Part shown: piece after piece, positions 17,494 through 42,706 of the stretch
Position numbering within the stretch: position 1 is the first letter of the stretch
Layout of the letters: every line of letters starts with the position of its first letter
NCBI RefSeq assembly: GCF_003952165.1
Contig: NZ_RXFT01000002.1
Span: 62,001 to 126,000, forward strand
Source: Variovorax guangxiensis
Lineage (GTDB): Bacteria > Pseudomonadota > Gammaproteobacteria > Burkholderiales > Burkholderiaceae_C
Reading direction: 5' to 3'
Length of the DNA: 64,000 nt
Position numbers and translations under genes: made by a program
Notes under the pieces: generated by a model
The model's input: only the letters and a program-made list of their open reading frames with translations
Told to the model about the DNA's origin: nothing
Database searches by the model: none

Positions 17494-17604
17494 TCCCTCC
17501 CCCGCTGGGGGAGGGCCGGGGTGGGGGCATCGGCCTCCATGCAGGCACAGCCTTTGCGAGCGCCGCTTGCCCCCATCCCGACCTTCCCCCAAAGGGGGAA
17601 GGGG
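17494..17604. repeat. REP/BIME-like paired palindromes
   Basis: CCCTCCCCCGCTGGGGGAGGG plus GGGGTGGGGGC, then GCCCCCATCCCGACC plus TTCCCCCAAAGGGGGAA. Same family and layout as 9190-9290. It ends directly before the start of the hydrolase gene at 17613, so it could affect its translation. Confidence 0.75.
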
Positions 17605-17612
17605 CAAACACC

Positions 17613-19588: not shown

Positions 19589-19592
19589 GCAC

Positions 19593-19680
19593 ACCCCCAG
19601 GCTTCGCGCACTTCGTGTGCTGCGCCAACCCCCTTGCAGGGGGCGACACCTGCGGCCCGGCAAAGCCGGTTCCGCGGTGT
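19593..19680. repeat. dispersed repeat, copy 1
   Basis: About 88 bases that match, in reverse complement, the segment at 46551-46637. Shared blocks include GGAACCGGCTTTGCCGGGCC, GCCCCCTGCAAGGGGGTTGG and CGAAGCCTGGGG. It contains two hairpins (CCGGCTTTGCCGG and CCCCCTTGCAGGGGG) and occupies the gap between the binding-protein and LivH-type genes. Confidence 0.85.
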
Positions 19681-19733
19681 CCCGCGCAACGCACGCCTAT
19701 TGAACAACGATACCGCCCAGAGAGAACCCCCTC

Positions 19734-22314: not shown

Positions 22315-22315
22315 C

Positions 22316-24010: not shown

Positions 24011-25903
24011 ATGCCCAAGCCATTGCCCACCCCGCCGATCCCCATTTCCGCCGTCCTCTGCCTGAGCTTCGCCGCGGCAGCCGTGCTCACGGCCTGCGGC
24101 GGCAGCAGCTCCTCAGGCCCTGCCGTGCTGCCTCTCGTTCCCGCGCCAGCCACGGCTCCACCCGCCGGCGCGCCGCTGGCCCTGGCCTGCGATGAAAGCC
24201 TGAAGACCGCGTTCAGGCCCGACGCCGACACCACCGTGACGGTGGTGAAGCAGTTCAGGAAAGGCGACGACCTGAACCTCGACGGCAAGGCCTCGGGCAC
24301 GGTGGCGGCCAGCGACGTGTGCATGGTCAAGCTCAACGTGGGACCCGGCCATGCGGGCCCGGCCGATGCGCCATCGACCTCGCCGGGCATCGGCATCGAG
24401 GTGTGGCTGCCTTCGCAGGCCTCGTGGAACAGCCGCATCCGCGTGCTCGGCGGCGGCGGCTTCGTCGGCGACGCGGGCATCGGCGCGAAGACGCAGATCG
24501 GTGGGGCGAATGCAGCCGCCATCGCGGCGGGCGAAGGCTCGGTGAGCGCCGTGACCGACGCCGGTCATGCATCGAAGGCGCCGCTGCCTTCGGTGGACGG
24601 CTCGTTCGCGATGAACCCCGACGGCACCGTCAATACCACGCTGTGGACCGACTTCGCGAGCCGCGGCATTCACCAGATGGCCGTCAAGGCCAAGGCGCTC
24701 GCCGCCGGCTTCTACCAGCGCGACGCGAAGTACGCCTACTGGGATGGCTGCTCCACCGGCGGCCGCCAGGGCCACATGCAGGCGCAGGTGAACCCCGACG
24801 ACTTCGACGGCATCCTGGCCGGCAACAGCGCGATCAACTGGACCAGCTTTATCACCGCCGAGTTGTATCCGCAGGTGGTGATGCAGCGCGACCTTGGCGG
24901 CACGCCGCTCACGGCCGACCAGCTTTCGCTGGTGTCTTCGTCGGCGGTGAGCGCCTGCGACAGCGCGCTCACGGGCCAGCACGACGGCTTCATCAGCGAC
25001 CCCGCCGCCTGCAACTACGACCCCGCTCAGGACAAGACCGTGCTTTGCACCGCCAGCGGCGGCACCAACGCCACCGCCGCATGCCTGAGCACCGCGCAGG
25101 CGCAGGCCGTCAACAAGATCTGGTACGGCCAGACACGCGACGGCAGCGCGCCCGCGCCCGCCAGCGACATCGGCTACGGCGCCACGCTGGCATCGAACCA
25201 GCTCTGGTACGGCCTCACGCGCGGCACCGCGCTCAACAGCCCCGGCGCGCCGGGCTTCTCGCTGGCCGACTCGGTGGCCGGCGTGCCCATGCCCTTCCAC
25301 ATCGCCGCGCACCAGGTGGCGCTGAACCTGCAGGACCCGACGATCGCAACGCCGGACTTCATCAACGCCACGGGCAACGGCGCGGACAAGTGGAAGGGCC
25401 TGTCTTACGCCCAGCTCGCCAACGCGAGCGACCGCGGCAAGGCGCTGCAGACGGCCTTCGCGAACATCAACGCCGACAACCCCGACCTCGCGCGCTTCCG
25501 CGACCGCGGCGCCAAGCTGCTGACGTACCACGGGTTGGCCGACCAGCTGATTCCGAGCTCGGGTACCGCCAACTACTACGAGCGCGCGGCAAAGGCGATG
25601 GGCGGCATCGATGCACTGCAGAAGTTCTACCGCTACGTGGAGATCCCGGCGATGGGCCACTGCGCGGGCGTGGGCTCTGTCAACGGCCTCGCCGGCACCA
25701 GCCCCACGGCCAACCCGCCGCTGCCGGCGCAGAACCAGCTGTTCACGGCGCTGACCGACTGGGTCGAGAAAGGCATCGCGCCCGACAGCATGGTGATGCA
25801 GAACGCCGACAAGTCGCTCGCGCGGCCGCTGTGCACCTACCCGAAGAAGATCGCCTACCTCGGCGGCGACGTGAGCAAGGCCGAGAGCTTCGCCTGCCGC
25901 TGA
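24011..25903 (+). CDS. tannase/feruloyl esterase family lipoprotein
   Basis: 630 residues. A lipoprotein signal (L-T-A-C, Cys29) suggests an outer-membrane or periplasmic anchor. The family's disulfide-linked CS-D-HC arrangement is visible: Cys247-Ser248 in G-C-S-T-G-G-R-Q-G, Asp511 in G-L-A-D-Q and His550-Cys551 in M-G-H-C-A-G. Members hydrolyse esters of aromatic acids such as gallate, ferulate or terephthalate half-esters. Near benzoate genes it could release aromatic acids from natural esters outside the cytoplasm; the exact substrate is open. It is 106 bases after the AraC gene. Confidence 0.9.
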   Translation: MPKPLPTPPIPISAVLCLSFAAAAVLTACGGSSSSGPAVLPLVPAPATAPPAGAPLALACDESLKTAFRPDADTTVTVVKQFRKGDDLNLDGKASGTVAASDVCMVKLNVGPGHAGPADAPSTSPGIGIEVWLPSQASWNSRIRVLGGGGFVGDAGIGAKTQIGGANAAAIAAGEGSVSAVTDAGHASKAPLPSVDGSFAMNPDGTVNTTLWTDFASRGIHQMAVKAKALAAGFYQRDAKYAYWDGCSTGGRQGHMQAQVNPDDFDGILAGNSAINWTSFITAELYPQVVMQRDLGGTPLTADQLSLVSSSAVSACDSALTGQHDGFISDPAACNYDPAQDKTVLCTASGGTNATAACLSTAQAQAVNKIWYGQTRDGSAPAPASDIGYGATLASNQLWYGLTRGTALNSPGAPGFSLADSVAGVPMPFHIAAHQVALNLQDPTIATPDFINATGNGADKWKGLSYAQLANASDRGKALQTAFANINADNPDLARFRDRGAKLLTYHGLADQLIPSSGTANYYERAAKAMGGIDALQKFYRYVEIPAMGHCAGVGSVNGLAGTSPTANPPLPAQNQLFTALTDWVEKGIAPDSMVMQNADKSLARPLCTYPKKIAYLGGDVSKAESFACR

Positions 25904-26052: not shown

Positions 26053-28008
26053 ATGACGTCCCTGCAATCGCGTCACATCGACAACGTCTACTCGATCGCC
26101 ACCGGCGCGGCGCTGGCCGATCCGGCGGCGAGCCTGGTCCACAAGTCGTGGGCGCGCTGCGTGCGCGACCACGGGCTCGATCCATCGAGGCCGAGCCCCG
26201 CGCGCATCCTGCCGGCGCAGGAAGTGCGCGCGCACCAGCAGCAGCTGGAGCATTTCCTGCGCGCCGCGCGCTCGGGCATGGAAGACATCTACCGCCGCGT
26301 GGCCGACCTCGGCTACATGGTGCTGCTGACCGACGCGGAAGGCATCACGGTCGACTACATCGGCAACCCCGCATGGGACGACCAGCTGCGCAAGGCCGGC
26401 CTCTACCTCGGCGCCGACTGGAACGAGGCGCACGCGGGCACCTGCGGCGTGGGCACCTGTCTGATCGAGCGCCAGCCGATGACCTGCCACCAGACCGAGC
26501 ACTTCGACGCCACGCACATCGCGCTGACCTGCACCACCGCGCCGCTGTTCGACCACAGCGGCAAGCTCACGGCCATCCTCGACGTGTCTGCCCTGCGCTC
26601 GCCAGAAGCCAGGGAGAGCCAGCATCTCGTGCGGCACCTGGTGGCCATCTACGCGCGGATGATCGAGGACGCCGACTTCCTGCGCAGCTTCCGGGGCCAC
26701 TGGATCCTGCGGCTGGGCAGCGCCTTCGGGCTGGTCGACGTGGCGGGCGAGGTGATGCTGGCCTTCGACGAAGGCGGCACGATGGTGGGCGCGAACGGCG
26801 GCGCGCGGCAGGCCTTTGCAGGGCGTGCGCTGGGCGGCGCGATATCCGAATGGCTGCACATGCCGATGGATGCGATCTGGCGCATCGGCAACGGCGGCGC
26901 GTCGGCCATGCCCTTCGCCCACACGGTGCTGCTGCCCGGTGGCGGCGAGTACCACGCGTCGCTGCTGGCGCCGCGCGTGCGCAGGCCTTCGGTCGCAACC
27001 CCTGGGGCGCCCGCCGCACGCCCGAACGACCGCCTGCCGCCGCTGGAGCGCATCGCGGGCGACGACCCGGCGATGCAGAAGCTGCTGGCGCAGGCACGCC
27101 GCCTTGTGGATCGCGGCATCCACGTGCTGGTCGAGGGCGAGACCGGCAGCGGCAAGGAAGTGCTGGCCCGCGCGCTGCACGGCGCGAGCGGCCGCGCGGC
27201 GATGCCCTTCGTGGCGGTGAACTGCGCGGCCATTCCCGATTCGCTGATCGAGAGCGAGCTGTTCGGCTACACGCCCGGCAGCTTCACGGGCGGACGCGCC
27301 AAGGGCATGAAGGGCCTGATCGCGCAGGCCGACCGGGGCACGCTGTTCCTCGACGAGATCGGCGACATGCCGATGGCGCTGCAGACGCGGCTGCTGCGCG
27401 TGCTCTCCGAGGGCGAGGTGCTGCCGCTGGGCGCAGAGTCGCCGCAGCGCGTGGACATCGCGGTGGTGGCGGCCACGCACCGCCACCTGCCCGGGCTCGT
27501 GGCCTCGGGGCGCTTTCGCGAGGACCTCTACTACCGCCTGTGCGGCGCGGTGCTGAAGCTGCCGCCGCTGCGCGAGCGCGGCGACAGGCGCTACCTGATC
27601 GAGGGCATGTTCAACGAGGAGGCCGCTGCGATGTCTTCACCGGCACGGCTGTCGGAAGAGGCGATGCAGAGGCTGCTGGCGCACGACTGGCCGGGGAATC
27701 TGCGGGAGCTGCGCAATGTGTTGAGGCTGGCGTTGGCGCTGTGCAGCGACGGCCGGGTCGGCGTGGAAGACCTCCAGCTACAGCTGCCCGCACGATCGGG
27801 CCACGTCACCCCGGCCAACGTGGCCCGTGTCGCCGCTTCTTCGGCCGACGACCCAGATGGCATCGCCGCCACCGAGCTGGTCGAACTGCTCAGGCGCCAC
27901 CGATGGCACGTGGCACGCGCGGCCGACGAACTTGGCCTGAGCCGTGCCACGGTGTACCGGCACATGAAGCGCCACGGCATCGCATCGCCGCGCAGGATGT
28001 CATCATGA
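26053..28008 (+). CDS. sigma-54-dependent activator, AcoR type
   Basis: 651 residues. An N-terminal sensor region (GAF-like, about 60-200, with G-T-C-G-V-G-T-C-L) is followed by an AAA+ domain: Walker A G-E-T-G-S-G-K-E at 362-369, Walker B with Asp434-Glu435. A Fis-type helix-turn-helix closes the protein ([14 protein letters not shown]). The sigma-54 contact loop reads G-S-F-T-G-G (409-414) where most members have G-A-F-T-G-A. The ATG at 26053 is chosen; an in-frame ATG at 25996 is possible. The likely target is the monooxygenase promoter 540 bases downstream. Confidence 0.9.
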
Positions 28009-28630: not shown

Positions 28631-30433
28631 ATGACAGACCCCACCACCGCCCCCACCCGGGCCGCGGCCCAATGGCTCGCCGACTTCGCCGCCGCGCTCG
28701 CGCGCAACGACATCGACGCGGCCGTCTCGCTGTTCGAGGCCGACAGCTTCTGGCGCGACCTCGTCGCCTTCACCTGGAACATCCGCACGCAGGAAGGCCC
28801 CGGGGCGATCCGCGCGATGCTGCAGGCGCGGCTGGCCGACGTGCAGCCCACGGCCTTCGCGGTGGAGGGCGAGGCGACCGAGGCCGATGGCGTGGTCGAT
28901 GCGTGGTTCACCTTCGAGACGCGCGTGGCGCGCGGACGCGGCCATCTGCGGCTGCGCAACGGCAAGGCCTGGACGCTGCTCACCACCATGACGGAGCTGA
29001 AGGGCTTCGAGGAGAAGACGGGCGACAACCGCATCAAGGGCGCGGAGCACGGCGTGCACAAGGGCCGCAAGAACTGGCTGGAGAAGCGCCGCGACGAAGA
29101 AGCGTCGCTGGGCTACACCGAGCAGCCCGAGGTGGTGATCATCGGCGGCGGCCAGGGCGGCATCGCGCTCGGCGCGCGGCTGCGGCGGCTGGGCGTGCCG
29201 ACCATCATCGTGGAGCGCAATGCGAAGGCCGGCGACTCCTGGCGCAAGCGCTACAAGTCGCTGTGCCTGCACGACCCGGTCTGGTACGACCACCTGCCCT
29301 ACATGCCCTTCCCCGACGACTGGCCGGTGTTCGCGCCCAAGGACAAGATCGGCGACTGGCTGGAGATGTACACGAAGATCATGGAGCTCAACTACTGGAG
29401 CTCCACCACCGCGAAGAAGGCGCGCTTCGACGAAGCCGCGCAGCGCTGGGAGGTGACGGTCGAGCGCGAGGGCAAGCCGGTGGTGCTGCGGCCGAGGCAG
29501 CTGGTTTTCGCGCTGGGCGTGTCGGGCTACCCAAATGTGCCGAAGGTGGCTGGCGCAGAGAACTTCAAGGGCGACCAGCACCACTCCAGCCAGCACCCCG
29601 GGCCCGAGGCCTATGCCGGCAAGAAGTGCGTGGTGCTGGGCTCCAACAACTCGGCGCACGACATCTGCGCCGCCCTGTGGGAACACGGCGCGGACGTGAC
29701 GATGATCCAGCGCTCGTCGACGCACATCGCGCCCTCCCAGTCGCTGATGGAGCTTGCGCTGGGCGGGCTCTATTCGGAGCAGGCGGTGAAAAGCGGCATC
29801 GACCACCACAAGGCCGACCTGATCTTCGCGTCGGTGCCCTACAGGATCATGCACACCTTCCACATCCCGGTGTACGAGGAGATGAAGAAGCGCGACGCCG
29901 ACCTGTACGCGCGGCTCGAAAAGGCAGGCTTCATGCTCGACTTCGGCGCCGACGGATCAGGGCTCTTCATGAAGTACCTGCGCCGCGGCTCAGGCTATTA
30001 CATCGACGTGGGCGCCTCGGAGCTGGTGGCCAACGGCAGCATCCACCTGAAGAGCGGCGTGAACATCGAGCGGGTGAACGAGCGCTCGGTCACGCTGACC
30101 GATGGCACCGAGCTGCCCGCCGACCTGCTGGTGTACGCCACCGGCTACGGCTCGATGAACGGCTGGCTGGCCGACCTGATCTCGCCCGAGATCGCCGACA
30201 AGGTCGGCAAATGCTGGGGCCTGGGCTCCGACACGCCGAAGGACCCGGGGCCGTGGGAAGGCGAGCTGCGCAACATGTGGAAGCCCACGCAGGTGGACAA
30301 CCTGTGGTTCCACGGAGGCAACCTGCACCAGTCGCGGCACTACTCGCAGTTCCTGGCGCTGCAGTTGAAGGCGCGGATGGAAGGGATCGACACGCCCGTG
30401 TACGAGCGGGCCGCGTCGCACCACGTGCGCTGA
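28631..30433 (+). CDS. flavin-containing monooxygenase with N-terminal SnoaL-like domain
   Basis: 600 residues. Residues 1-140 look like a SnoaL/NTF2-like domain (W-L-A-D-F-A-A-A-L-A-R-N-D-I-D-A-A-V-S-L-F). The rest is a class B flavin monooxygenase: FAD motif I-I-G-G-G-Q-G-G from residue 170, an FMO-type F-K-G-D-Q-H-H-S-S-Q and a nucleotide motif L-G-S-N-N-S-A-H-D. The pattern suggests NADPH-dependent oxygenation of a small lipophilic compound, a Baeyer-Villiger or N/S-oxidation. It has its own -24/-12 promoter and is probably switched on by the AcoR-type activator when its substrate appears. Confidence 0.9.
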   Translation: MTDPTTAPTRAAAQWLADFAAALARNDIDAAVSLFEADSFWRDLVAFTWNIRTQEGPGAIRAMLQARLADVQPTAFAVEGEATEADGVVDAWFTFETRVARGRGHLRLRNGKAWTLLTTMTELKGFEEKTGDNRIKGAEHGVHKGRKNWLEKRRDEEASLGYTEQPEVVIIGGGQGGIALGARLRRLGVPTIIVERNAKAGDSWRKRYKSLCLHDPVWYDHLPYMPFPDDWPVFAPKDKIGDWLEMYTKIMELNYWSSTTAKKARFDEAAQRWEVTVEREGKPVVLRPRQLVFALGVSGYPNVPKVAGAENFKGDQHHSSQHPGPEAYAGKKCVVLGSNNSAHDICAALWEHGADVTMIQRSSTHIAPSQSLMELALGGLYSEQAVKSGIDHHKADLIFASVPYRIMHTFHIPVYEEMKKRDADLYARLEKAGFMLDFGADGSGLFMKYLRRGSGYYIDVGASELVANGSIHLKSGVNIERVNERSVTLTDGTELPADLLVYATGYGSMNGWLADLISPEIADKVGKCWGLGSDTPKDPGPWEGELRNMWKPTQVDNLWFHGGNLHQSRHYSQFLALQLKARMEGIDTPVYERAASHHVR

Positions 30434-30480: not shown

Positions 30481-31185
30481 TCACTCGCTGATGAACCGCC
30501 GCAGCCCTTCCAGGTCGATCACGGTGATGCCGCCGTACTCGATGCGCAGGAACCCGGCCTCCTTCAGCCGGTTCAACGCCGCATTGCACCGCTGGCGTGA
30601 CACGCCCGAAAGGTTCGCGATTTCTTCCTGCGAGGTCTGAAGATGCGGCTCGCTGCCCGGGTGCAGCCAGGGATGGAATAGCCCCGCCAGCGCGCGCGCC
30701 ACCTGGCTGTCGGCATCGAGCAGGCGATGCGCCGCGTAGTTGCCCATGAACCAGTGCAGCCGCTCGTTGATCTGCTGCAGAAGGAAGTGATCGAAGCCGC
30801 GCTGCGTGCGGTGCAGCCACTCGAAGGTTTCCAGCGGCAGCGCCGCCACCCTGCTCGGCCGCAGGGCGATGATGTCGGCCGAGCGCGGGAGCGCGCGCAA
30901 CAGCGTGCCTTCGCCGAACCAGCTGCCCACCGAGAGCCCGCCGAAGGTCACGGAGCGGCCATCGCTGGAGGTGATCGACCACTTGAGCAGCCCCTCGAGG
31001 GTGCCGTACCAGTGCATCGGCGTGTCGCCGCGCCGGCACAGCGCGGCGCCCGCCGCCACCTCCACCTCGCGCATCTCGTCGAGCACGCGCTCGCCCGCAC
31101 TCACGTCGAGCAGGGGGAACCAGGCCGAACCTTGCAGCAGCTGGGGGATCGTGAGCGAGGCCGCCTTGGGGGCCGGCTTGTTCAT
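30481..31185 (-). CDS. Crp/Fnr family transcriptional regulator
   Basis: 234 residues from the ATG at 31185. An N-terminal cyclic-nucleotide-binding-type beta roll (S-V-G-S-W-F-G-E-G-T-L-L, about 80-110) and a C-terminal Crp helix-turn-helix (E-E-I-A-N-L-S-G-V-S-R-Q-R-C-N) are clear. No Fnr-type cysteine cluster is present, so oxygen sensing through Fe-S is unlikely. ATGs at 31185 and 31191 are both possible, and neither has a good ribosome site. Convergent with the monooxygenase and divergent from the BKACE cluster 152 bases away, which it could regulate. Confidence 0.87.
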   Translation of the reverse strand: MNKPAPKAASLTIPQLLQGSAWFPLLDVSAGERVLDEMREVEVAAGAALCRRGDTPMHWYGTLEGLLKWSITSSDGRSVTFGGLSVGSWFGEGTLLRALPRSADIIALRPSRVAALPLETFEWLHRTQRGFDHFLLQQINERLHWFMGNYAAHRLLDADSQVARALAGLFHPWLHPGSEPHLQTSQEEIANLSGVSRQRCNAALNRLKEAGFLRIEYGGITVIDLEGLRRFISE

Positions 31186-31337
31186 GGACATAGGGCGGAA
31201 GACGGATGGCGCTGGGGCGACTTTAGCCGGTGGCGCAGCGTAAACCCTGAGCACGAATGTCGTCGCGATGACTGAGTCGGAGCGCGGCTCAAAAAAATAA
31301 TTGGGTGCCCCATGACAGACACCAGGAGCCCCCGAGC

Positions 31338-32258
31338 ATGTCGAAGCGCAAAGTGATCGTGACCATCGCCCCCACCGGCGGCATGGCGCACAAGTCGCAG
31401 AACCCCCACCTCCCCACCCAACCCGCCGAGATCGCGGCCGACGTGCTGCGCTGCTGGAACGCCGGCGCGAGCGTGGTCGCCATCCACGCGCGCCGCCCGG
31501 ACGACGGCGCCACCTGCGACGCCGACGTGTATCGCGACATCAACAGCCGCATCCGCGCGGGCGGCTGCGACATCGTCATCAACAACTCCACCGGCGGCGG
31601 CGTGCACGGCGACATGGTGAAGCCGCTGGCGGGCGACCGCTGGGAGATCGCCTGGGAAGAGCGCATCAAGGGCATGGACGCCGGCGCCGAGATGTGCACG
31701 CTGGACGCCACCACGCTCAACCTGAGCTTCGAGGGCAAGCAGATCCTGATGGACACGCCCATCACCCGTGGCCGAGAGCTGGCCGCCGGCATGAAGGCGC
31801 GCGGCATCAAGCCCGAGTGGGAAGTGTTCAGCCCCACGCACATCCTGCAGGACACGACCACGCTGATCGGCGAGGGCCACGACGACGAACCCTACTTCAT
31901 CAACCTGGTGATGAACGTGCACCGCAACTTCCAGAACGCGATGCCGTATTCGCCGCGCTTCCTGCAGATGATGGTCGACACCCTGCCCAAGGGCAGCATC
32001 TTCTGCGTGAGCGGCATCGGCCCCTCGCAGCTGGAGGCCAACGTCGCGGCGCTGCTGCTGGGCGGCCATGCGCGCGTGGGCCTGGAAGACAACCTCTACT
32101 TCCGCCAGGGCGAGCTGGCCACCAACGTGCAGCTCACCGAGCGCATCGTGCGCGTGATCCGCGAGCTCGACATGGAAGTGGCGACGCCCGCCGAAGCGCG
32201 GCAGATGATGGGCCTGCCGCGGGTGGGCACGCCGAGGCCCGAGTTCGCATTGGGCTGA
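31338..32258 (+). CDS. BKACE family (DUF849) beta-keto acid cleavage enzyme
   Basis: 306 residues, TIM-barrel. Known members cleave a free beta-keto acid with acetyl-CoA to an acyl-CoA plus acetoacetate. Family landmarks are A-P-T-G-G near the N-terminus, N-N-S-T-G-G and G-L-E-D-N, which holds the metal-binding Glu. The expected metal pair H-x-H reads A-I-H here (Ala48, His50), so the first histidine is missing. ATG at 31338 behind AGGAG. It heads an operon with a binding protein, a 3-hydroxyacid dehydrogenase and a CoA ligase, so its substrate should be made by that dehydrogenase. Carnitine-type chemistry is one possibility. Confidence 0.9.
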
Positions 32259-32298
32259 CAGCGGCACGCAGCAGGAAAAGACGAACGGAGACGAATAC

Positions 32299-33513
32299 AT
32301 GAGCAAGCTTTCCCGCACCGCCCTGGCCGTCGCGCTCGGTGCGGCATTCGCAGCAACGGGCGCCTCGGCGCAGGTGTCCGACGACGTGATCCGCATCGGC
32401 TTCATCAGCGACATGTCGGGCATCTACCGCGACTACGACGGCCCGGCCGGCGCCGAGGCCATCCGCATGGCGATCGCCGACATGGGCGGCGCCATCGGCG
32501 GCAGGAAGATCGAACTGATCACGGCCGACCACCAGAACAAGCCCGACATCGCCGCCGCCAAGGCGCGCGAATGGTTCGACGTGCAGAAGGTCGATATGCT
32601 GGTCGCCGGCGTCAACTCGGGCGCGGCCATCGCCATGGCGGGCGTGGCGGCCGACAAGAAGAAACCGTACTTCGTGGTGGGCTCGGGCGCCTCGGGCCTC
32701 ACCAACGAATACTGCTCGCCCTATACGGTGCACTACGCCTACGACACGGTGGCCATGGCGCGCGGCACCGCGAGCGCGGTGGTCAAGGCCGGCGGCAAGA
32801 GCTGGTACTTCGTGACGGCCGACTACGCCTTCGGCGCGGCGCTGCAGAACGACGCCACCAGGACGGTGCAGGCCGCGGGCGGCACGGTGGCGGGCTCGGT
32901 CAAGCATCCGCTGGGCGCGAGCGACTTCTCGTCGTTCATGCTGCAGGCGCAGGGCTCCAAGGCGCAGGTGCTGGCACTGGCCAACGCGGGCGGCGACACG
33001 GTCAACGCCATCAAGTCGGCGGCGGAGTTCGGCGTCGGCAAGAACATGAAGCTGGCCGGCATGATCATCACCATCAACGACGTGCACGCGCTGGGCCTGA
33101 AGGCATCGCAGGGCATGTACCTCACCGACAGCTGGTACTGGAACCAGAGCCCCGAGTCGCGCGAATGGGCGCGCCGCTTCTTCGACAGGCACAAACGCAT
33201 GCCCTCCTCCTTCCATGCCGGCGACTACTCGGCCGCACTGCAGTACCTGCAGGCGGTGAAGGCGGCCGGTACCGACGACGCCGACAAGGTGATGGCGCAG
33301 TTGCGCAAGACGAAGTTCAATGACATGTTCGTCAAGGGCGGCTGGCTGCGCGACGACGGGCTGATGGTGCACGACATGCACCTGATGCAGGTGAAGACGC
33401 CGGCCGAATCGAAGGAACCCTGGGACTACTACAAGGTGGTCGAGCCCATCCGCGGCGAGGCCGCATGGACCACGAAGGCGGAGAGCCGCTGCGCGCGGTG
33501 GAAATCGACATGA
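32299..33513 (+). CDS. ABC substrate-binding protein (Leu/Ile/Val-type)
   Basis: 404 residues with a signal peptide ending A-S-A-Q (about residue 25) and a type I periplasmic binding fold. No permease or ATPase gene is adjacent, so it is an orphan receptor that must borrow a transporter from elsewhere. Sitting inside a catabolic operon, it probably captures the compound degraded by these enzymes. The stop overlaps the next start by four bases. Confidence 0.88.
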   Translation: MSKLSRTALAVALGAAFAATGASAQVSDDVIRIGFISDMSGIYRDYDGPAGAEAIRMAIADMGGAIGGRKIELITADHQNKPDIAAAKAREWFDVQKVDMLVAGVNSGAAIAMAGVAADKKKPYFVVGSGASGLTNEYCSPYTVHYAYDTVAMARGTASAVVKAGGKSWYFVTADYAFGAALQNDATRTVQAAGGTVAGSVKHPLGASDFSSFMLQAQGSKAQVLALANAGGDTVNAIKSAAEFGVGKNMKLAGMIITINDVHALGLKASQGMYLTDSWYWNQSPESREWARRFFDRHKRMPSSFHAGDYSAALQYLQAVKAAGTDDADKVMAQLRKTKFNDMFVKGGWLRDDGLMVHDMHLMQVKTPAESKEPWDYYKVVEPIRGEAAWTTKAESRCARWKST

Positions 33514-34457
33514 GCACATCCCCGGAAATCCAACGCGTGGCGGTGGTAGGCACCGGCGTGATCGGCGCGAGCTGGGTCGCGTACTTTCTGGCGCACGGCC
33601 TCGACGTGAACGCGACCGATCCCTCACCCGGCGCCGAAGAGCGGCTGCGCGAAGCCGTGGCCAGGCACTGGCCCACGCTGGAGCGCTTCGGCCTCGCGCC
33701 CGGCGCGAGCATCGACCGCCTGCGCTTCCACGACAGCCTGGAAGACGCCGTCTCGGTGGCCGACTTCGTGCAGGAGAACGGCCCCGAGCGCATGGACTTC
33801 AAGATCGACCTGTTCCGCCGCATGGACGCGGCCGCGCCGCCGGAGACCATCCTCGCGTCGAGCTCGTCGGGCCTCGCGATCAGCGGCATGCAGTCGGGCT
33901 GCGCGCATCCGCAGCGCGTGGTGCTGGGGCATCCGTTCAACCCGCCGCACCTGATTCCGCTGGTGGAAGTGATCGGCGGCGAGCAGACCTCGGCCGAGGT
34001 CATCGAACGCACCATGGCCTTCTATGCGGCCATCGGCAAGCGGCCTATCCACGTGAAGCGCGAGGTGAAAGGCCACATCGCGAACCGGCTGCAGGCCGCA
34101 CTGTGGCGCGAAGCCTTCCACCTCGTCGACCAGGGCGTGGCGAGCGTGGCCGACATCGACGCGGCCATCGCGCACGGGCCCGGCCTGCGCTGGGCGGTGA
34201 TGGGGCCGTTCATGAATCTGCATCTCTCGGGTGGTGCGGGCGGCATCGAGCATGTGCTCGCGCACCTGGGCGGGCCCATCGAGGACTGGTGGAAGGACCT
34301 CGGAGTGCCGTCGATGACGGCGGAACTGAAGCGGAAGGTGAAGGATGGCGTCGATGAGGAACTGGGCGATCGCCGCACCAGCGACCTCGAATCCGCCCGC
34401 GACACCCTGCTGTTAAACCTGATTCGCGCCAAATCCGACACCGGCAGGCTCGACTGA
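33510..34457 (+). CDS. 3-hydroxyacyl-CoA dehydrogenase family protein (carnitine-dehydrogenase-like)
   Basis: 315 residues. NAD motif G-T-G-V-I-G at 14-19, catalytic histidine region G-H-P-F-N-P-P, and a C-terminal domain with G-P-G-L-R-W-A-V-M-G-P-F. The last motif resembles L-carnitine dehydrogenase and L-gulonate 3-dehydrogenase, which oxidise free 3-hydroxy acids. That fits the adjacent BKACE enzyme, which cleaves free 3-keto acids. The start overlaps the upstream stop, and the CoA ligase gene starts one base after its own stop. Confidence 0.88.
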   Translation: MSTSPEIQRVAVVGTGVIGASWVAYFLAHGLDVNATDPSPGAEERLREAVARHWPTLERFGLAPGASIDRLRFHDSLEDAVSVADFVQENGPERMDFKIDLFRRMDAAAPPETILASSSSGLAISGMQSGCAHPQRVVLGHPFNPPHLIPLVEVIGGEQTSAEVIERTMAFYAAIGKRPIHVKREVKGHIANRLQAALWREAFHLVDQGVASVADIDAAIAHGPGLRWAVMGPFMNLHLSGGAGGIEHVLAHLGGPIEDWWKDLGVPSMTAELKRKVKDGVDEELGDRRTSDLESARDTLLLNLIRAKSDTGRLD

Positions 34458-34458
34458 A

Positions 34459-36270
34459 ATGACCGACTTCCTCCTCGATGAAAACCTGATCGCCCCGCCC
34501 CGCACGGTGCGCATCGACTTCGACAACGGCTCCTTCGCGCTGCGTTCTCCGATGGCGCTGAAGCCCTATGCACGCTGCATCGGCGAATGGCTGGAGCGCT
34601 GGGCGCGCGAGACGCCCGACGCGCTGGCCTTCGCGGAGCGCGACGAGAGCGGCGAAGGCTGGCGCAAGCTGGACTACCGCGCGCTGCGCCAGGCCGTGGG
34701 CTCGGTGGCGCAGGCATTGCTCGACATGAAGCTGCCGGCGGGCCAGCCGGTGGTGATTCTTTCGGACAACGCCATCGACCACGTGGTGCTGATGCTCGCG
34801 GCCATGCACATCGGCCGCGCCGCCTGTTCGCTCTCCAGCGCCTACTCGCGCATGGCGAAGGACACCTCGCGGCTGCACGGCATGCTGCAGGCACTGAAGC
34901 CCGCGCTGATCTACGCCTCCGACGCGAAGGTGTACGGTGGCTCGCTCGCAGGCAGCGGCGTGGAGGCCGTCGCGGTGTTCAGCCGCAATGCCGACGCGCA
35001 CCCGGGCGCCATCGCCTTCGACAGCCTGCTCGCGGCGAAGGAAACGCCCGCCGTCATGGAAGCCTTCGCGAGCGTGCTGCCCGACACGCACGCCAAGTAC
35101 CTGCTGACCTCCGGCTCCACCGGCAGGCCCAAGGTGGTCATCAACACGCACCGCATGCTGTGCGCCAACCAGCAGATGATCGCGCAGACCTGGCGCTTCC
35201 TCGCACAAGAGAAGCCGGTGCTGGTCGACTGGCTGCCCTGGAGCCACACCTTCGGCGCGAATCACAACCTGCACATGGTGGTGTGCCACGGCGGCGCGCT
35301 CTACATCGACGAGGGCCGGCCCGCCCCGGGGCTGATCGAGAAGACGGTGCGCAACCTGCGCGAGGTGAAGCCCACGCTGCTGTTCAACGTGCCGCGCGGC
35401 TTCGACATGCTGCTGCCCTTCCTGGAGGCCGACGAGGCACTGGCCGCCGACGTGCTCTCGCGCCTGCGCCTGGCCTTCTACGCGGCGGCGGCGCTCGCCC
35501 CCTCCACCTGGAAGCGGCTCGAGGCGGTGGCCGTGCGCGTGCGCCCTGCGCGGCCGCTGTGGCTCACCACCTCGTGGGGCGCGACGGAGACATCGCCCGC
35601 CATTACCTCCGCGCACTGGAAGCTCGACGGCGCCGGCTGCATCGGCGCGCCGCTGCCGGGGCTTGAGCTGAAGTTCGTGCCCAACGGCGAGAAGCTGGAG
35701 ATGCGCGTCAGGGGCGTCTCGGTGTTCCCCGGCTATCGCGATGCCCCGCGCGAAACCGCGCAGGCCTTCGACGAAGAAGGCTACTACCGCATCGGCGACG
35801 CCGGCTTCCTGGCCGACCCGACGCAGCCCGCGCAGGGCGTGATCTTCAACGGCCGCGTGGCGGAGGACTTCAAGCTTTCCACCGGCACCTGGGTCTCTGT
35901 GGGCACACTGCGCGTGAAGCTGGTGTCGATGCTCGCGCCTCACGTGCAGGACATCGTGCTCACCGGCCACGACCGCGACGAGATCGGCATGCTGGTGTTC
36001 GCGAGCCCCCAGGGTGCCGCGCTTGCGCCGCAGGCCATGGGCGAACGCATCGCCGGCGTGCTGCGCGCGCTGCGCGACGAGGGCGCGGGCTCCTCGCAGT
36101 GCCCCGCCTGCGCGCTGGTGCTCGCCGAGCCGCCGAGCCTCGACGCGGGCGAGATCACCGACAAGGGCTACATCAACCAGCGCGCGGTGCTGACGCGCCG
36201 CGCGGCGGAAGTGCAGCGGCTGCATGCGCGCACGCCGGGCGATGCGCAGGTGGTGCGACTGGAGGGCTGA
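34459..36270 (+). CDS. feruloyl-CoA synthase-like acid-CoA ligase
   Basis: 603 residues, ANL superfamily, with the P-loop L-T-S-G-S-T-G-R-P-K and the region W-G-A-T-E-T-S-P-A. The long N-terminus and the F-K-L-S-T-G-T-W-V-S-V-G motif are typical of the feruloyl-CoA synthase branch. The terminal catalytic Lys is in E-I-T-D-K-G-Y-I-N-Q, also a mark of that branch. It would activate an aromatic or branched acid to its CoA ester. The substrate may be a cinnamate-like acid; ferulate itself is unproven, because no vanillin dehydrogenase or feruloyl-CoA hydratase/lyase is clearly adjacent. Confidence 0.88.
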   Translation: MTDFLLDENLIAPPRTVRIDFDNGSFALRSPMALKPYARCIGEWLERWARETPDALAFAERDESGEGWRKLDYRALRQAVGSVAQALLDMKLPAGQPVVILSDNAIDHVVLMLAAMHIGRAACSLSSAYSRMAKDTSRLHGMLQALKPALIYASDAKVYGGSLAGSGVEAVAVFSRNADAHPGAIAFDSLLAAKETPAVMEAFASVLPDTHAKYLLTSGSTGRPKVVINTHRMLCANQQMIAQTWRFLAQEKPVLVDWLPWSHTFGANHNLHMVVCHGGALYIDEGRPAPGLIEKTVRNLREVKPTLLFNVPRGFDMLLPFLEADEALAADVLSRLRLAFYAAAALAPSTWKRLEAVAVRVRPARPLWLTTSWGATETSPAITSAHWKLDGAGCIGAPLPGLELKFVPNGEKLEMRVRGVSVFPGYRDAPRETAQAFDEEGYYRIGDAGFLADPTQPAQGVIFNGRVAEDFKLSTGTWVSVGTLRVKLVSMLAPHVQDIVLTGHDRDEIGMLVFASPQGAALAPQAMGERIAGVLRALRDEGAGSSQCPACALVLAEPPSLDAGEITDKGYINQRAVLTRRAAEVQRLHARTPGDAQVVRLEG

Positions 36271-36303
36271 TTTCCGCTCGCCGGTGCAGATGACCGCCCA
36301 CTG

Positions 36304-37110
36304 CTACGGCTGCGCCAGCCACTTGCGCCACAGCACCAGCGCCTTGTCCTGGTAGCGCCGGGTGGCGGCGAGCAGCGCGGTGCGCGGCGCGGTCGACATG
36401 AGTTCGGCCGGCAGCAGCGGGTCGCGGATGATGTGCGCGATCACGGCACGGCCCAGCAGCAGCGACTCGCGCGTCGCGGTCTCGAGCTTCTGGGTGGCGA
36501 GCCGCTTCTCGCTGCGTTCCACGCCCGTCTGCAGGCGGCGGTAGTCGGCCTCCATGGCGCGCACATTCCACAGCTTGCGCGCGGCCGCCTGAGCCGCATC
36601 GTCGAGGTCGGCGATGCGGAACACCAGCGCGCCGGAGGACAGCCCCAGTGCCGCCAGGTGCTTGCGCTCGGCCGCGAGGCCGCCCGAGAGGTTGTCGGGC
36701 CGGATGTGCAGGCCCGGGTGCAGCGCGGCGAAACCGCGCAGCGACAGCGCGAGCGCGTGATGGCGCCACGCGGTCTTGTCGGCGCGCGGCACGCCGGCGT
36801 CGTGCACCGCCAGCCAGTCGCCGCGCCATGCGACGGTCTGCGCCTGCCGGTTGCGCCAGGCATCGACGGTGCGCGACAGCGCCGCGCCCTTGCGGTCGAG
36901 CATGTAGCTGCCGCGCTCGCCGCGCGCGATCTTGCCCTCGGCCGCGAGCCGCGTCAGGCCCACGCGCAGGGTCGACTCGCCGATGCCCATGAGCGCGCCC
37001 GCACGGCACAGCGCCTGCGCGCTCAGCGTGCCGCCGTCGGCCACCAGAAGGTCGAGGATCAGGTCGGGCGCGCTGGGGACGGCGACCGGCACATTACATA
37101 CTTTGTCCAT
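36304..37110 (-). CDS. PaaX family transcriptional regulator
   Basis: 268 residues. The N-terminal winged helix (D-L-I-L-D-L-L-V ... G-I-G-E-S-T-L-R-V-G-L-T-R-L) and PaaX-like central and C-terminal domains (R-P-D-N-L, D-P-L-L-P) are recognisable. PaaX proteins repress phenylacetate or related CoA-ester pathways and are released by an aryl-CoA ester. It converges on the ligase gene and diverges from a crotonase gene 77 bases away, so it probably represses this cluster in response to a CoA thioester. No good ribosome site is seen before the ATG. Confidence 0.87.
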   Translation of the reverse strand: MDKVCNVPVAVPSAPDLILDLLVADGGTLSAQALCRAGALMGIGESTLRVGLTRLAAEGKIARGERGSYMLDRKGAALSRTVDAWRNRQAQTVAWRGDWLAVHDAGVPRADKTAWRHHALALSLRGFAALHPGLHIRPDNLSGGLAAERKHLAALGLSSGALVFRIADLDDAAQAAARKLWNVRAMEADYRRLQTGVERSEKRLATQKLETATRESLLLGRAVIAHIIRDPLLPAELMSTAPRTALLAATRRYQDKALVLWRKWLAQP

Positions 37111-37187
37111 GTTTGCAGGGGAGAGAAATATTTCCTACGATCATCGTGAGCGATCGAGCATGTAAGTTTGCCCGGAAGGATGCGCGC

Positions 37188-37970
37188 ATGGCCATGCAAT
37201 ACGTGAACTGCGACACAGATGGCGCCGTCTGCACCATCACCCTGAACCGGCCCGACAAGCGCAACGCGGTCGACGGCCTGGTGGCGGCCGAACTGCGCGA
37301 AGCCTTCGGCCATTTCGAGGCCGAAGATGCATTGCGCGTCGCGGTGCTGACCGGCGCGGGCGGCCACTTCTGCGCGGGCGCCGACCTCTCCGCCGTGGGC
37401 GACCCCGCCCGCCGCAACGAGCTCGACCCCGAAGGCGGCGGCAGCGGCCCGATGGGCCCCACGCGCATGGCGCTGTCGAAGCCGCTGATCGCGGCGGTGA
37501 ACGGCTTCGCGGTGGCCGGCGGCCTCGAGCTCGCGCTGCTGGCCGACCTGCGCGTGGCCGACGAGGACGCGGTGTTCGGCGTGTTCTGCCGCCGCTGGGG
37601 CGTGCCGCTGATCGACGGCGGCACGGTGCGGCTGCCGCGCATCGTGGGCATGGGGCGAGCGCTCGACATGATCCTCTCGGGCCGCCCGGTGGGCGCGCCC
37701 GAGGCGCTCGCGATGGGCCTGGTCAACCGCATGACGCCGCCCGGCGGCGCGCTGGCCGCCGCGCAGCAGCTGGCGCGCGAGATCGCCGCCTTTCCGCAGC
37801 GTTGCATGCTGGCCGACCGGCGCTCCGCCTACGAGCAATGGGACATGCCGCTGGCCGAGGCCCTGCGCCGCGAAGGTGCGCTGGGCGTGCCGGTGGTCTT
37901 CGCCGAGGGCCAGGCCGGCGCCGCGCGCTTTGCCGGCGGCGCCGGGCGCCACGGCGAGTTCGGAAGCTGA
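37188..37970 (+). CDS. enoyl-CoA hydratase/isomerase (crotonase) family protein
   Basis: 260 residues. Oxyanion-hole motifs H-F-C-A-G-A-D-L and G-F-A-V-A-G-G-L-E-L-A are intact, and a crotonase Glu follows at G-L-E-L. At the position usually holding the second catalytic Glu the sequence is F-C-R-R-W-G-V-P-L-I-D-G-G, a form common in short crotonases of unknown activity, so hydration of the CoA ester is likely but not certain. ATG at 37188 behind GGAAGGA. It diverges from the PaaX-type gene and may act on the product of the neighbouring ligase. Confidence 0.88.
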   Translation: MAMQYVNCDTDGAVCTITLNRPDKRNAVDGLVAAELREAFGHFEAEDALRVAVLTGAGGHFCAGADLSAVGDPARRNELDPEGGGSGPMGPTRMALSKPLIAAVNGFAVAGGLELALLADLRVADEDAVFGVFCRRWGVPLIDGGTVRLPRIVGMGRALDMILSGRPVGAPEALAMGLVNRMTPPGGALAAAQQLAREIAAFPQRCMLADRRSAYEQWDMPLAEALRREGALGVPVVFAEGQAGAARFAGGAGRHGEFGS

Positions 37971-39508: not shown

Positions 39509-40801
39509 ATGGTCGCCGATTCCCGCCTTCCCAACTTCCGCGCACTGACACCCGCGCAGCGCCTCGAACACATCGCGGGCATCGCCTCGCTCACCGCCGA
39601 CGAGACCGCCCTGCTCGCCCGGCCCGGCGCCCTGGGCATGGACCGCGCCAACGGCATGATCGAGAACGTCATCGGCACCTTCGAGCTGCCGCTGGGCGTG
39701 GCCGGCAACTTCGTGGTGAACGGCCGCGAGTACCTGGTGCCGATGGCGGTGGAAGAACCCTCGGTGGTGGCCGCGGCCTCGTTCATGGCCAAGCTGGCGC
39801 GCGAAGGCGGCGGCTTCGAGGCATCGAGCACCGGACCGCTGATGCGCGCGCAGGTGCAGGTGGTGGGCATCGGCGATCCGCAGGGGGCGCGGCTCGCGCT
39901 GCTGCGGGCGCGCGAGCGCATTCTGGAAATAGCGAACAGCCGCGACAAGGTGCTGATCGGCCTGGGCGGCGGCTGCCGCGACATCGAGGTGCATGTGTTC
40001 GAGAGCACGCCGCGCGGCGCGATGGTGGTGATGCACCTGATCGTCGACGTGCGCGACGCGATGGGCGCGAACACGGTCAACACCATGGCCGAGGCGGTGT
40101 CGCCGCTGGTCGAGGAGCTCACCGGCGGCACGGTGCGGCTGCGCATCCTGTCGAACCTCGCGGACCTGCGGCTGGCGCGCGCCCGCGTGCGGCTCGCACC
40201 GGCCGTGCTCGCCACGCGCGAGCGCAGCGGCGAGGAAGTGGTGGAAGGCGTGATCGACGCCTACACCTTCGCGGCCGTCGACCCCTACCGCGCGGCCACG
40301 CACAACAAGGGAATCATGAACGGCATCGACCCGGTGATCGTCGCCACCGGCAACGACTGGCGCGCGGTCGAGGCAGGCGCACACGCGTACGCCTGCCGCC
40401 ATGGCCGCTACACCTCGCTCACGACCTGGGAGAAGGACAACACCGGCGCGCTGGTCGGCACCATCGAGCTGCCGATGCCGGTGGGGCTGGTGGGCGGCGC
40501 CACCAAGACGCATCCGCTGGCGCGGCTGGCGCTGAAGGTCCTCGGCGTGCAGTCGGCACAGGAGCTCGGCGAAGTGGCCGCTGCGGTGGGCCTTGCGCAG
40601 AACCTGGGCGCCCTGCGCGCGCTGGCCACCGAAGGCATCCAGCGCGGCCACATGGCACTGCACGCACGCAACATCGCGCTGGTGGCCGGTGCCGCCGGCG
40701 AGGAGATCGACGCCGTCGCGAAGCAGATGGCGGCCGAGCACGACGTGCGCACCGACCGCGCGGTGGCGCTGCTCGAAGCGCTGCGCAAGAACAAGAAGTA
40801 G
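39509..40801 (+). CDS. mvaA: hydroxymethylglutaryl-CoA reductase, degradative (class II)
   Basis: 430 residues. The four catalytic residues known from the Pseudomonas mevalonii enzyme fall at the same numbers: Glu83 (V-E-E-P-S), Lys267 (H-N-K-G-I-M-N-G), Asp283 (G-N-D-W-R) and His381 (R-G-H-M-A-L-H). E-N-V-I-G and the D-A-M-G-A-N stretch are also present. In the catabolic direction it oxidises mevalonate and CoA to HMG-CoA with NAD. HMG-CoA lyase is not in the window. Two membrane protein genes follow, so the operon probably imports and uses mevalonate. Confidence 0.96.
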
Positions 40802-40868: not shown

Positions 40869-41321
40869 ATGAAGACGGACAGTGCAGGCCGCGCGAGATG
40901 GCGGCTGGTTGAAATATGGGGCGACACCGCCGACCTGGGCCACCTCGCGTGGTCGATCGCCATCGGCCTCGTGGTGAGCCTCGCGGGCTTCCTGGTGGCC
41001 AACCGCGTGCTCGCGAGCACGGTGGGCACGCCCGAGCTGGCACGGGCCTACGCCATGCTCGCGGGCCTGGGCGGCTGCGTGCTGTCGGGCCTGATCTGCG
41101 CCTGGCTCTTCACGCCCAAGCGCGAGGTGATCGAGGGCACGGGCGCCGATCCGCGCTGGCGCGAGGAAGTGCTGGCCGAACTGGCCGGCGAGCACGGCGA
41201 CCTGGGCTCGGTGGCCGACCTGCCCCCTGCGGTGGTGCGCGAGATGAAGGAGCTCGAGATCCACGACCTGTTCGCCTCGTACCGGCCACGCGCCGCGCGG
41301 CAGGAAGGCGGCGCGCCATGA
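40869..41321 (+). CDS. small membrane protein, TctB-like partner of the TctA-type permease
   Basis: 150 residues with two hydrophobic segments (about 27-49 and 58-82) and a charged C-terminal half (E-R-E-E-V ... H-D-L-F-A-S-Y-R-P). It is shorter than classical four-helix TctB proteins. It overlaps the TctA-type gene by four bases, so the products are made together and likely form one complex. No periplasmic TctC receptor is encoded nearby. Confidence 0.78.
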   Translation: MKTDSAGRARWRLVEIWGDTADLGHLAWSIAIGLVVSLAGFLVANRVLASTVGTPELARAYAMLAGLGGCVLSGLICAWLFTPKREVIEGTGADPRWREEVLAELAGEHGDLGSVADLPPAVVREMKELEIHDLFASYRPRAARQEGGAP

Positions 41322-42706
41322 TCGCCGCATCGCTGCTCGACCAGATCCTCGTCGCCACCGGCATGGGCCTTGTCGGCGCCGTGGTGTTCGCCGCCATCGG
41401 TCTCGTCTCGGGCACCGACGAGACCACCACGCTCGCGCCGCTGACGCTGCTGGTGGTGCTGCTGGGCGTACCGCCCGAGGGCGTCTTCACCTTCTTCCTG
41501 GCCGCGGCCGTGGCCAAGCACATGACGCACGCGGTGCCCACGGCGCTGCTGGGCATTCCGGGCGACACCATGGCCACGCCGCTGCTGCAGGACGCCAACG
41601 TGCTGCGCAACCTCGGCGTGCCGCACATCGCGCTGCGCAAGATGGTGTCGGGCGCGATCATCGCGGCCTTCATCTCGGTGCCGCTGGCCGTGCTGTTCGC
41701 GGTGCTGCTGGCGCCCTACGGCGCGGCCATCACCAAGGCGGCGCCGTGGATCTTCGTGGTGGCAGCCGTGGCCATCGCGTATTTCTCGAGCGGGCGCTGG
41801 GCCTCGGTGGCGACGCTGGTGCCCTTCGTGGTGGTGATCGTGGCGCTGCAGGCGCTCACGGGCAAGTACGGCGTGAAGCTCAGCATCAGCTACTTCCTGG
41901 GCATCGCCATCGGGCCGCTGGTGGCCGACCTGTTCTCGGTGATCTCGCCGGCCGCGCGTGCGCGCATGAAGCGCGAGAAGGTGCGCACCTTCTCGCTGGC
42001 GCCCGACGTGAAGGGCTGGTCGGGCTACTTCCCGAACCCGTTCAAGGTGCTAGACCGCGGGCAGGTGAAGTGGACCTTCGCGACGGCGGCCGTCTCCAGC
42101 GCCACCTTCGTGTTCAGCCCCGTCGCGATGACGGTGGTGCTCGGCGAGCTGGTGGGCTCGCGCGTGAAGCACGCCTACCATCGGCTCACGACCACGCTGG
42201 CCGCGCGCAACGGCGTGACCGAGGCCACCTACATCGCCGAGGCGCTGATTCCGCTGATCGCCATCGGCCTGCCGCTGAGCCCGGTGGCCGCGGGGCCGGC
42301 CGCGCCGCTCTTCAACGCGCCGCCCGTCTTCACCATCGACGCGGCCAGCGGCCAGACCCACAACCTGCACAACCTGCTGAGCCACTGGGAGTTCCTGGGC
42401 TACGGGATGCTGGCGGTGGTGCTGGCGGCGCTGGTGGCCTATCCGTTCACGATGAACTTCGCACGCCGCGCGGCGCTCTTCGTCTCGCGCAAGGTCAGCC
42501 ACGAGGCGATCATCGCGACCTTCGTGGGGCTGATCGTGGTGATCAGCGTGTGGGAAGGCCAGTTGCTCGGGCTGCTGGTGATCCTGACGATGGGGCTGCT
42601 GGGCGGGCTGCTGTCGCGCGCCATCGGCTTCAACACCGGCGTGCAGTTCATGGGTTACTACACGGCGGTGCTGACGGTGCCTGCGGTGGTGAAGGCCTTC
42701 GGCTGA
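41318..42706 (+). CDS. TctA family permease, putative mevalonate transporter
   Basis: 462 residues with about eleven hydrophobic segments. Family features include G-I-P-G-D near residue 80, the Y-F-L-G-I-A-I-G-P region, and N-L-H-N-L-L near residue 345. TctA proteins carry tri- and dicarboxylates with a TctC receptor, but no receptor is present here. Its place in an operon with HMG-CoA reductase suggests uptake of mevalonate. Substrate and independence of a receptor are inferred. Confidence 0.87.
   Translation: MIAASLLDQILVATGMGLVGAVVFAAIGLVSGTDETTTLAPLTLLVVLLGVPPEGVFTFFLAAAVAKHMTHAVPTALLGIPGDTMATPLLQDANVLRNLGVPHIALRKMVSGAIIAAFISVPLAVLFAVLLAPYGAAITKAAPWIFVVAAVAIAYFSSGRWASVATLVPFVVVIVALQALTGKYGVKLSISYFLGIAIGPLVADLFSVISPAARARMKREKVRTFSLAPDVKGWSGYFPNPFKVLDRGQVKWTFATAAVSSATFVFSPVAMTVVLGELVGSRVKHAYHRLTTTLAARNGVTEATYIAEALIPLIAIGLPLSPVAAGPAAPLFNAPPVFTIDAASGQTHNLHNLLSHWEFLGYGMLAVVLAALVAYPFTMNFARRAALFVSRKVSHEAIIATFVGLIVVISVWEGQLLGLLVILTMGLLGGLLSRAIGFNTGVQFMGYYTAVLTVPAVVKAFG

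Follow-up and report, generated by a model that had tools for sequence, protein, structure and literature searches.

Background

Genome annotations commonly give proteins of the DUF849 family (PF05853) the name 3-keto-5-aminohexanoate cleavage enzyme (Kce) or beta-keto acid cleavage enzyme (BKACE). The L-carnitine dehydrogenase route consists of carnitine dehydrogenase and a BKACE, and the CoA pathways for ferulate and cinnamate use a feruloyl-CoA synthase with a hydratase and, in their beta-oxidative form, a thiolase. Published reports describe related uses of the family: in the deoxyribonate pathway a short-chain dehydrogenase/reductase (SDR) supplies a BKACE of the DUF849 family with its free beta-keto acid (PMC6365646), a DUF849 protein has been raised as a comparable replacement of downstream steps of the beta-ketoadipate pathway (PMC8963497), and in vitro activity on benzoylacetate is reported for some DUF849 enzymes or groups (PMC4922564, citing Bastard et al. 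2014). Here we analyzed a 64,000-nucleotide stretch of Variovorax guangxiensis DNA (assembly GCF_003952165.1, contig NZ_RXFT01000002.1, positions 62,001 to 126,000; hereafter the window), in which a DUF849 gene heads an operon for a binding protein, a 3-hydroxyacid dehydrogenase (DH) and an acyl-CoA ligase. The operon is real, conserved and undescribed in the literature searched.

Results and discussion

A preliminary description of this segment had proposed an undescribed cluster of five catabolic genes under a PaaX-type regulator. All six genes are present in the window, but the unit was wrongly delimited: its core was right, and its outer parts and regulator were wrong. The conserved unit is a divergent gene for a Crp/Fnr-family regulator (30481-31185, minus strand; PF00027 61.2 bits, PF13545 46.9 bits) followed by four plus-strand genes. 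These encode the DUF849/BKACE protein (31338-32258; PF05853 265.5 bits, gathering cut-off 24.8), a periplasmic binding protein of the ABC type (32299-33513; PF13458 359.6 bits), a DH of the L-carnitine dehydrogenase/lambda-crystallin type in the 3HCDH family (33510-34457) and an AMP-binding acyl-CoA ligase of a feruloyl-CoA-synthase-like subfamily related to PRK12582 (34459-36270). Forty bases separate the DUF849 and binding protein genes, the latter overlaps the DH gene by four bases (ATGA), and a single base lies between the DH and ligase genes. An antisense gene for a PaaX-type helix-turn-helix regulator (36304-37110, minus strand; PF07848) parts the ligase gene from that of a crotonase of the PRK08259 type (37188-37970, plus strand; 394 bits, cut-off 273), with 33 bases on its convergent side and 77 on its divergent side. 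The junctions of four bases or one base previously ascribed to the whole cluster are therefore found at two of four places, binding protein/DH and DH/ligase, and not at the other two. The Crp/Fnr-type gene, an operator-like dyad at 31258-31272 and a complete benzoyl-CoA (box) cluster at 7893-23014 had been overlooked. Between 31100 and 38000 no sigma-70-type promoter matched the consensus; the same interval holds six terminator-like sites against 2.6 expected, none of them just 3' of the ligase gene. The novelty claimed for the BKACE-DH-ligase unit stands in the literature searched: no description of the operon was found, judging from titles and the beginnings of abstracts among the matches listed, and no paper was found that joins 3-keto-5-aminohexanoate cleavage to feruloyl-CoA in an aromatic context. 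The one paper found on benzoylacetate together with BKACE is a report of the in vitro benzoylacetate activity, and the one found to link a keto acid cleavage enzyme with benzoyl-CoA concerns phloroglucinol.

For comparison we used the best 80 of 365 DUF849 relatives found by scan and 60 loci with ligase homologues, the latter from searches of 395 genomes (100 of the genus and 299 of the family, four shared); the two sets overlap in some genomes. Gene counts in the 80 loci depend on set identity thresholds and include loci cut by contig ends, with at least 5 kb downstream of the DUF849 start covered in 74 and at least 9 kb in 68. Of these loci, 66 have a Crp homologue (60% identity or more), DH is present in 64, and ligase in 61, each time alongside DH. 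An ABC binding protein occurs in 41 and a TctC receptor (at least 75%) in 21, the binding protein being swapped for the receptor, or absent, in some relatives. Within the genus, DH (at least 72% identity) is found in 76 of 100 genomes, and the ligase gene is adjacent on the same strand in 74 of the 76; the other two are interrupted by a contig break (G029) or have no such ligase (G064). In the 299 family genomes, DUF849 proteins of the AxH type (defined below) occur in 12, DH in 14 and both in 11, where 0.56 would be expected (hypergeometric probability 1e-16 counted by genome, 2e-8 counted by genus, with no correction for relatedness). Four genomes break the pairing: one has DUF849 and no DH, its match lying at a contig start and containing one TGA (G342), and three have DH only (G237, G295 and G359). 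Two loci, L240 and L241, have a core of Crp-MFS-DUF849-DH with no ligase, the Crp copies near DUF849-DH being of 58% identity. Because DH and DUF849 co-occur in 11 genomes and persist in these ligase-less loci, while PaaX and crotonase come and go, the DH-DUF849 pair looks like the core partnership, with the ligase as a frequent partner and the PaaX-crotonase pair as a variable neighbor. Thus the proposed grouping of BKACE-family, carnitine-dehydrogenase-type and ligase genes is borne out as a conserved unit by the adjacency in 74 of 76 genomes and the 11 genomes with both DH and DUF849. Gene order is conserved for DUF849, DH and ligase, and not for PaaX and crotonase. The suggested free-acid step, DH and then DUF849, is the best reading of this conserved pairing.

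Some relatives carry the unit in altered form. Nine Achromobacter and Bordetella loci (L193-L201) and L236 have an SDR gene 3' of an AxH-type DUF849 gene and no DH; they also carry a Crp homologue (38-44%) and a binding protein. In one of them (L193) a class I fumarase-like gene follows. In Variovorax J22R193 (G052; loci L033 and L161) the DUF849 and binding protein genes lie on one side of boxB and the Crp, DH and ligase genes on the other.

Alignment of the regions upstream of DUF849 brings out a dyad motif, TGTCRTCGCRAYGAC, at the divergent Crp-DUF849 promoter, as a site of a Crp/Fnr regulon would be. Exact copies occur in 64 of 71 loci (L122-L192), one in each, 54-130 bases 5' of the DUF849 start; the remaining seven are L161, L169, L171, L179, L181, L184 and L186. 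Over all 239 loci, many of which overlap or omit the promoter, the exact dyad is present in 93. The window copy, TGTCGTCGCGATGAC (31258-31272, plus strand), is the only exact one in its genome, lies 65 bases 5' of DUF849 and is a predicted site of a Crp/Fnr-family protein. A conserved AATAAT (31296-31301, plus strand) is a candidate -10 element. Counted from the dyad's central base, the string ATAAT starts 31-32 bases on in 57 of the 64 loci (32 in the window) and was not found within 60 bases of it in the other seven; the spacing is near the geometry of class II Crp/Fnr activators. It therefore appears from sequence that the Crp/Fnr-family protein may bind the dyad and control the operon. With up to two mismatches allowed, the window holds only the site itself on both strands, and none at the PaaX/crotonase gap; such a pattern would give 3.68 chance matches in the window, and only the exact conserved form is informative. 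One-mismatch matches in the genome number 10 + 7, against 4 + 4 for a backward control pattern, and given these counts we claim no wider regulon.

PaaX-type control of the whole set, as one five-enzyme regulon joining free-acid and CoA-ester routes, seems very improbable to us. All the genes are indeed present, and the crotonase gene stands directly 3' of the ligase gene in loci where PaaX is absent (L103-L105 and L107). However, a PaaX-type gene was seen in at least 10 and a crotonase in at least 14 of the 80 loci, both being lower bounds given the 68 loci covered to at least 9 kb; in L102 and L106 other genes separate PaaX from the ligase; and the dyad belongs to the Crp-DUF849 gap. The PaaX-type protein itself scores 45.4 bits against the PaaX model TIGR02277 (cut-off 264.55), its PF07848 domain reaching 29.3 bits (cut-off 24.8). 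PaaX as operon regulator was rejected on these counts, the conserved neighbor with an operator-like site being the Crp/Fnr gene. The PaaX-crotonase pair is a variable add-on, and the PaaX-type protein probably controls the crotonase gene locally rather than the operon. Nor does the crotonase belong to the unit as first drawn: besides its patchy occurrence, it keeps the first catalytic Glu and has Cys at the second position of the pair known as Glu144/Glu164 in rat enoyl-CoA hydratase, and so departs from the canonical enzyme. All seven hydratases that we aligned with it from related clusters carry both Glu residues; three of them, plus one in a separate check, were confirmed as PRK08150 type. 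The missing Glu also weakens the crotonase as a candidate for the hydratase of the pathway.

In place of the aryl-CoA control expected from PaaX, the concrete neighbor is the box pathway. The window contains a complete box cluster with boxA, the benzoyl-CoA 2,3-epoxidase subunit gene (7893-9176, minus strand; TIGR03224 747 bits, cut-off 459.2), boxB (9309-10754, minus strand; TIGR03225 887.2 bits, cut-off 499.1) and boxC (10920-12593, minus strand; TIGR03222 976.4 bits, cut-off 712.3), all above their equivalog cut-offs. Next to these is a BoxR-type regulator with helix-turn-helix and shikimate-kinase-like parts (12747-13688, minus strand; PRK08154 456.2 bits, cut-off 204). On the plus strand follow genes for 3,4-dehydroadipyl-CoA semialdehyde dehydrogenase (14343-15890; PRK11903 927.3 bits, cut-off 444), a benzoate-CoA ligase family protein (15923-17467; TIGR02262 789 bits, cut-off 375.25) and an alpha/beta hydrolase with a Liv-type ABC transporter of one binding protein, two permeases and two ATPases (17613-23014). 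In many relatives the Crp-DUF849 operon lies next to the hydrolase and Liv genes or comes after them. Of the 76 DH genomes, 60 carry DH and boxB on one contig, always on opposite strands, less than 50 kb apart in 58 and less than 30 kb in 53 (median 22 kb); the distances cover these 60, since boxB is on a different contig in 15 genomes and absent from one. Box genes directly precede Crp-DUF849-TctC-DH-ligase in seven Acidovorax loci (L147, L160, L162, L163, L170, L173 and L183), and the operon follows Liv genes in four Pseudacidovorax loci, two Xenophilus E41 loci and many Variovorax. A Methylibium metagenome-assembled genome (L186) has DUF849 behind the box hydrolase gene, without DH or ligase.

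Considering these arrangements together, we tentatively favor, with confidence a little short of even, a Crp/Fnr-controlled operon for acid uptake and side-chain cleavage that serves the aerobic benzoyl-CoA (box) pathway. The substrate, step order, products and ligase role that we infer are as follows. The binding protein, of the ABC type in the window and replaced by TctC or MFS in relatives, would help to import an acid. DH would then oxidize a 3-hydroxy acid to a beta-keto acid, the substrate being most likely a 3-hydroxy-3-arylpropanoate, and the DUF849 protein would split the beta-keto acid at C2-C3, most likely passing the aryl-acyl part to CoA. In the simplest case, 3-hydroxy-3-phenylpropanoate would give benzoylacetate and then benzoyl-CoA, which would enter the box pathway. 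The ligase probably activates a related cinnamate- or benzoate-type aryl acid and so broadens the intake, and the PaaX-crotonase pair would be a later neighbor outside this core.

The DUF849 protein departs from the characterized enzymes at the presumed metal site. Aligned with Kce (2Y7D), its Ala48, His50 and Glu250 correspond to His46, His48 and Glu230, which we take to be the metal ligands of Kce. One of the three is thus replaced and the other two are kept. All 81 proteins of the close set (the window protein and those of L122-L201) have Ala48, as do DUF849 loci of other families (L231, L232, L233 and L235), while His occupies this position in all 31 other DUF849 rows compared: Kce, the second DUF849 copy of this genome and 29 other loci, namely L234 and 28 of 44 matches from outside the genome, all Pseudomonadota. 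In a tree of 49 rows a branch with support 100/98 separates the 18 Ala rows from the rest, with a long-branch warning for rows outside the Ala group. By alignment and tree, then, the window protein belongs to a coherent clade, here called AxH, that lacks one metal ligand of Kce. The equivalents of Arg246, Glu250, Asp251, His50 and Glu162 are retained, and the loop at 193-200 is longer in the clade than in the solved relatives aligned. The position of Kce Glu14, which presumably binds the amino group of the substrate, is Met16. The active-site Tyr145 of Kce, implicated in catalysis according to PMC12871164, is replaced by Phe164, a weak discriminator since Phe is common there in other DUF849 rows too. 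The plain claim of acetyl-CoA-dependent cleavage of beta-keto acids by this BKACE is not supported, the metal ligand being Ala in all clade members examined, and the chemistry of the protein may differ from what the name BKACE implies. It is possible, if doubtful, that the AxH clade is strictly speaking no BKACE but a new C-C cleaving enzyme with a rebuilt or metal-free site, which together with DH replaces a thiolase in the degradation of aryl side chains and delivers benzoyl-CoA to the box pathway. The second DUF849 gene of the genome (L120:5889-8423), outside the window, is of the HxH type and lies behind an intradiol-dioxygenase-like gene and an SDR gene.

DH is a clear member of the 3HCDH superfamily (PF02737 164.2 bits, PF00725 49.4 bits). 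H141, E153 and N192 are invariant in 12 aligned rows, the His-Glu dyad being presumably catalytic. The nearest solved relatives are pyridine-carboxylate dehydrogenase and lambda-crystallin; by their names these are enzymes of non-CoA substrates, and the group would act on free acids or alcohols. The best NCBIfam model for the ligase is feruloyl-CoA synthase (PRK12582), at 653.1 bits and below the cut-off of 777; a paralogue in the same genome reaches 722.2 bits and the homologue in L237 776.7 bits. Ligase homologues also occur in loci without DH or DUF849, where they accompany a thiolase, SDR, hydratase or acyl-CoA dehydrogenase, and in 8 of the 60 ligase loci the gene ends a benzoate-CoA-ligase/Liv operon. 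A thiolase of related type is present in none of 30 DUF849 loci compared with 8 of 30 other ligase loci, five of these thiolases at 73% identity or more and three at 24-37%. In L052 (G034:C24:132459-134327) the ligase match falls into two pieces, a possible frameshift.

Several observations weigh against the favored function. The best-scoring model for DH is L-carnitine dehydrogenase, a metal ligand of the characterized BKACEs is missing from the AxH clade, and PMC4922564 reports two DUF849 groups, G6 and G7, as 'not BKACE'. Because that ligand is missing, neither cleavage nor CoA dependence is assured for the clade. CoA esters made by the ligase and the free-acid pair of DH and DUF849 do not form one line, since a thioesterase would be needed and the operon has none. 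Synteny within a single genus is not independent evidence, and two Acidovorax isolates have Liv genes (L165) or other DNA (L145) between the box genes and the operon. Thirty of the 80 loci have no box or Liv gene (60% identity) in the stretch compared, nine of them Achromobacter or Bordetella, and the Crp-DUF849-DH core of L240 and L241 has no box gene within about 10 kb. An aromatic substrate is therefore not forced.

It is also possible that the core degrades an aliphatic 3-hydroxy acid (carnitine-like, a sugar acid or another), that proximity to the box genes in Comamonadaceae is historical and that the ligase serves the box pathway alone. Consistent with this, L240 and L241 have Crp, MFS, DUF849 and DH without ligase or nearby box genes; DUF849 in Trinickia sits among phosphotriesterase-family, porin, MFS, class III aminotransferase and amidase genes; ligase homologues are part of benzoate-CoA-ligase/Liv operons without DH or DUF849; the carnitine model is the best for DH; and the genome has no second DH of this type at E 1e-60. 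However, DH scores 346.6 bits against that model (PRK07066), below the equivalog cut-off of 414, Met16 stands where Kce has its presumed amino-binding Glu, the ligase adjoins DH in nearly all DH genomes of the genus, and L237, from a different family, has a BoxR-type gene divergent from an operon for a binding protein, a ligase, DH, DUF849 and a PRK08150 hydratase. On balance a non-aromatic module is possible and rather less likely than an operon feeding the box pathway. Carnitine catabolism in particular is disfavored by the DH score and the Met residue.

The free-acid order of steps in the favored reading must also be set against a route by CoA esters, in which ligase, hydratase, DH and DUF849 replace a round of beta-oxidation and DUF849 acts on a 3-oxoacyl-CoA instead of a thiolase. 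Such a route gains from L035, L036 and L237, where all four genes run in one direction and the hydratases (L035 and L237 checked) are of the PRK08150 type with both catalytic Glu residues, and from related ligase clusters (L085, L086 and L113) with SDR and thiolase in place of DH and DUF849; the change at the metal site would also suit a different substrate. However, the operon has no such hydratase in the window or in most loci compared, the window crotonase is without the second Glu, DH belongs to a free-acid group, and no DUF849 protein known to us accepts a beta-ketoacyl-CoA. We consider this route improbable.

Other genes of the window are noted here as neighbors. Upstream of the Crp/Fnr gene is a gene for an FMO-type monooxygenase with an N-terminal SnoaL-like domain (28631-30433), preceded by a sigma-54-type regulator gene (26053-28005); the monooxygenase gene was considered as an operon member and is counted as a neighbor, being near the operon in 9 of 80 loci. 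A tannase/feruloyl esterase family gene (24011-25900; PF07519 263.9 bits) follows the box-Liv cluster and an AraC-type gene. It hints at aryl esters, is a singleton among the 60 loci and the window, and was not used as evidence. A 4-hydroxylaminobenzoate lyase family gene (13852-14343; PF16155) heads the plus-strand box genes. Further downstream, a degradative-type hydroxymethylglutaryl-CoA reductase gene (39509-40801; 428.5 bits, cut-off 259.95) beside a MocR-like regulator and a TctA-type gene (41318-42703) possibly form a unit for mevalonate uptake and degradation.

Comparison with known systems

The AxH clade spans Variovorax, Acidovorax, Comamonas, Achromobacter and others. Having lost a metal ligand, its members mostly keep the DH partner and a Crp/Fnr-type neighbor with an operator-like site, and often the box genes. 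It thereby becomes testable whether benzoylacetate-type acids enter aerobic benzoyl-CoA degradation through cleavage without a thiolase, and what part the altered metal site plays.

The operon shares with BKACE/Kce, known from lysine fermentation and from relatives screened in vitro, the PF05853 family and a partner able to make beta-keto acids. The window clade differs, as far as sequence tells, in Ala for His46, Phe for Tyr145 and the loop insertion. Like the L-carnitine route, it pairs a dehydrogenase of this family with DUF849; unlike that route, its DH falls below the model cut-off and its neighbors are an aryl ligase and box genes. With the CoA pathways for ferulate and cinnamate, represented here by clusters L085, L086 and L113, it has in common the ligase subfamily and a partial pairing with a hydratase, but the window operon has DH and DUF849 instead of a thiolase, and its ligase stays below the PRK12582 cut-off. 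The box pathway of aerobic benzoyl-CoA epoxidation would be the adjoining lower pathway and is complete in the window; the operon is not among the known box genes. Finally, the deoxyribonate pathway (PMC6365646) likewise has a dehydrogenase feeding DUF849 and genes clustered with transporters, and its pairing of SDR and BKACE is paralleled by the SDR-DUF849 loci of Achromobacter, Bordetella and L236, whereas the window operon differs from it in the dehydrogenase family, the Crp/Fnr neighbor, the aryl-type ligase and the box neighborhood.

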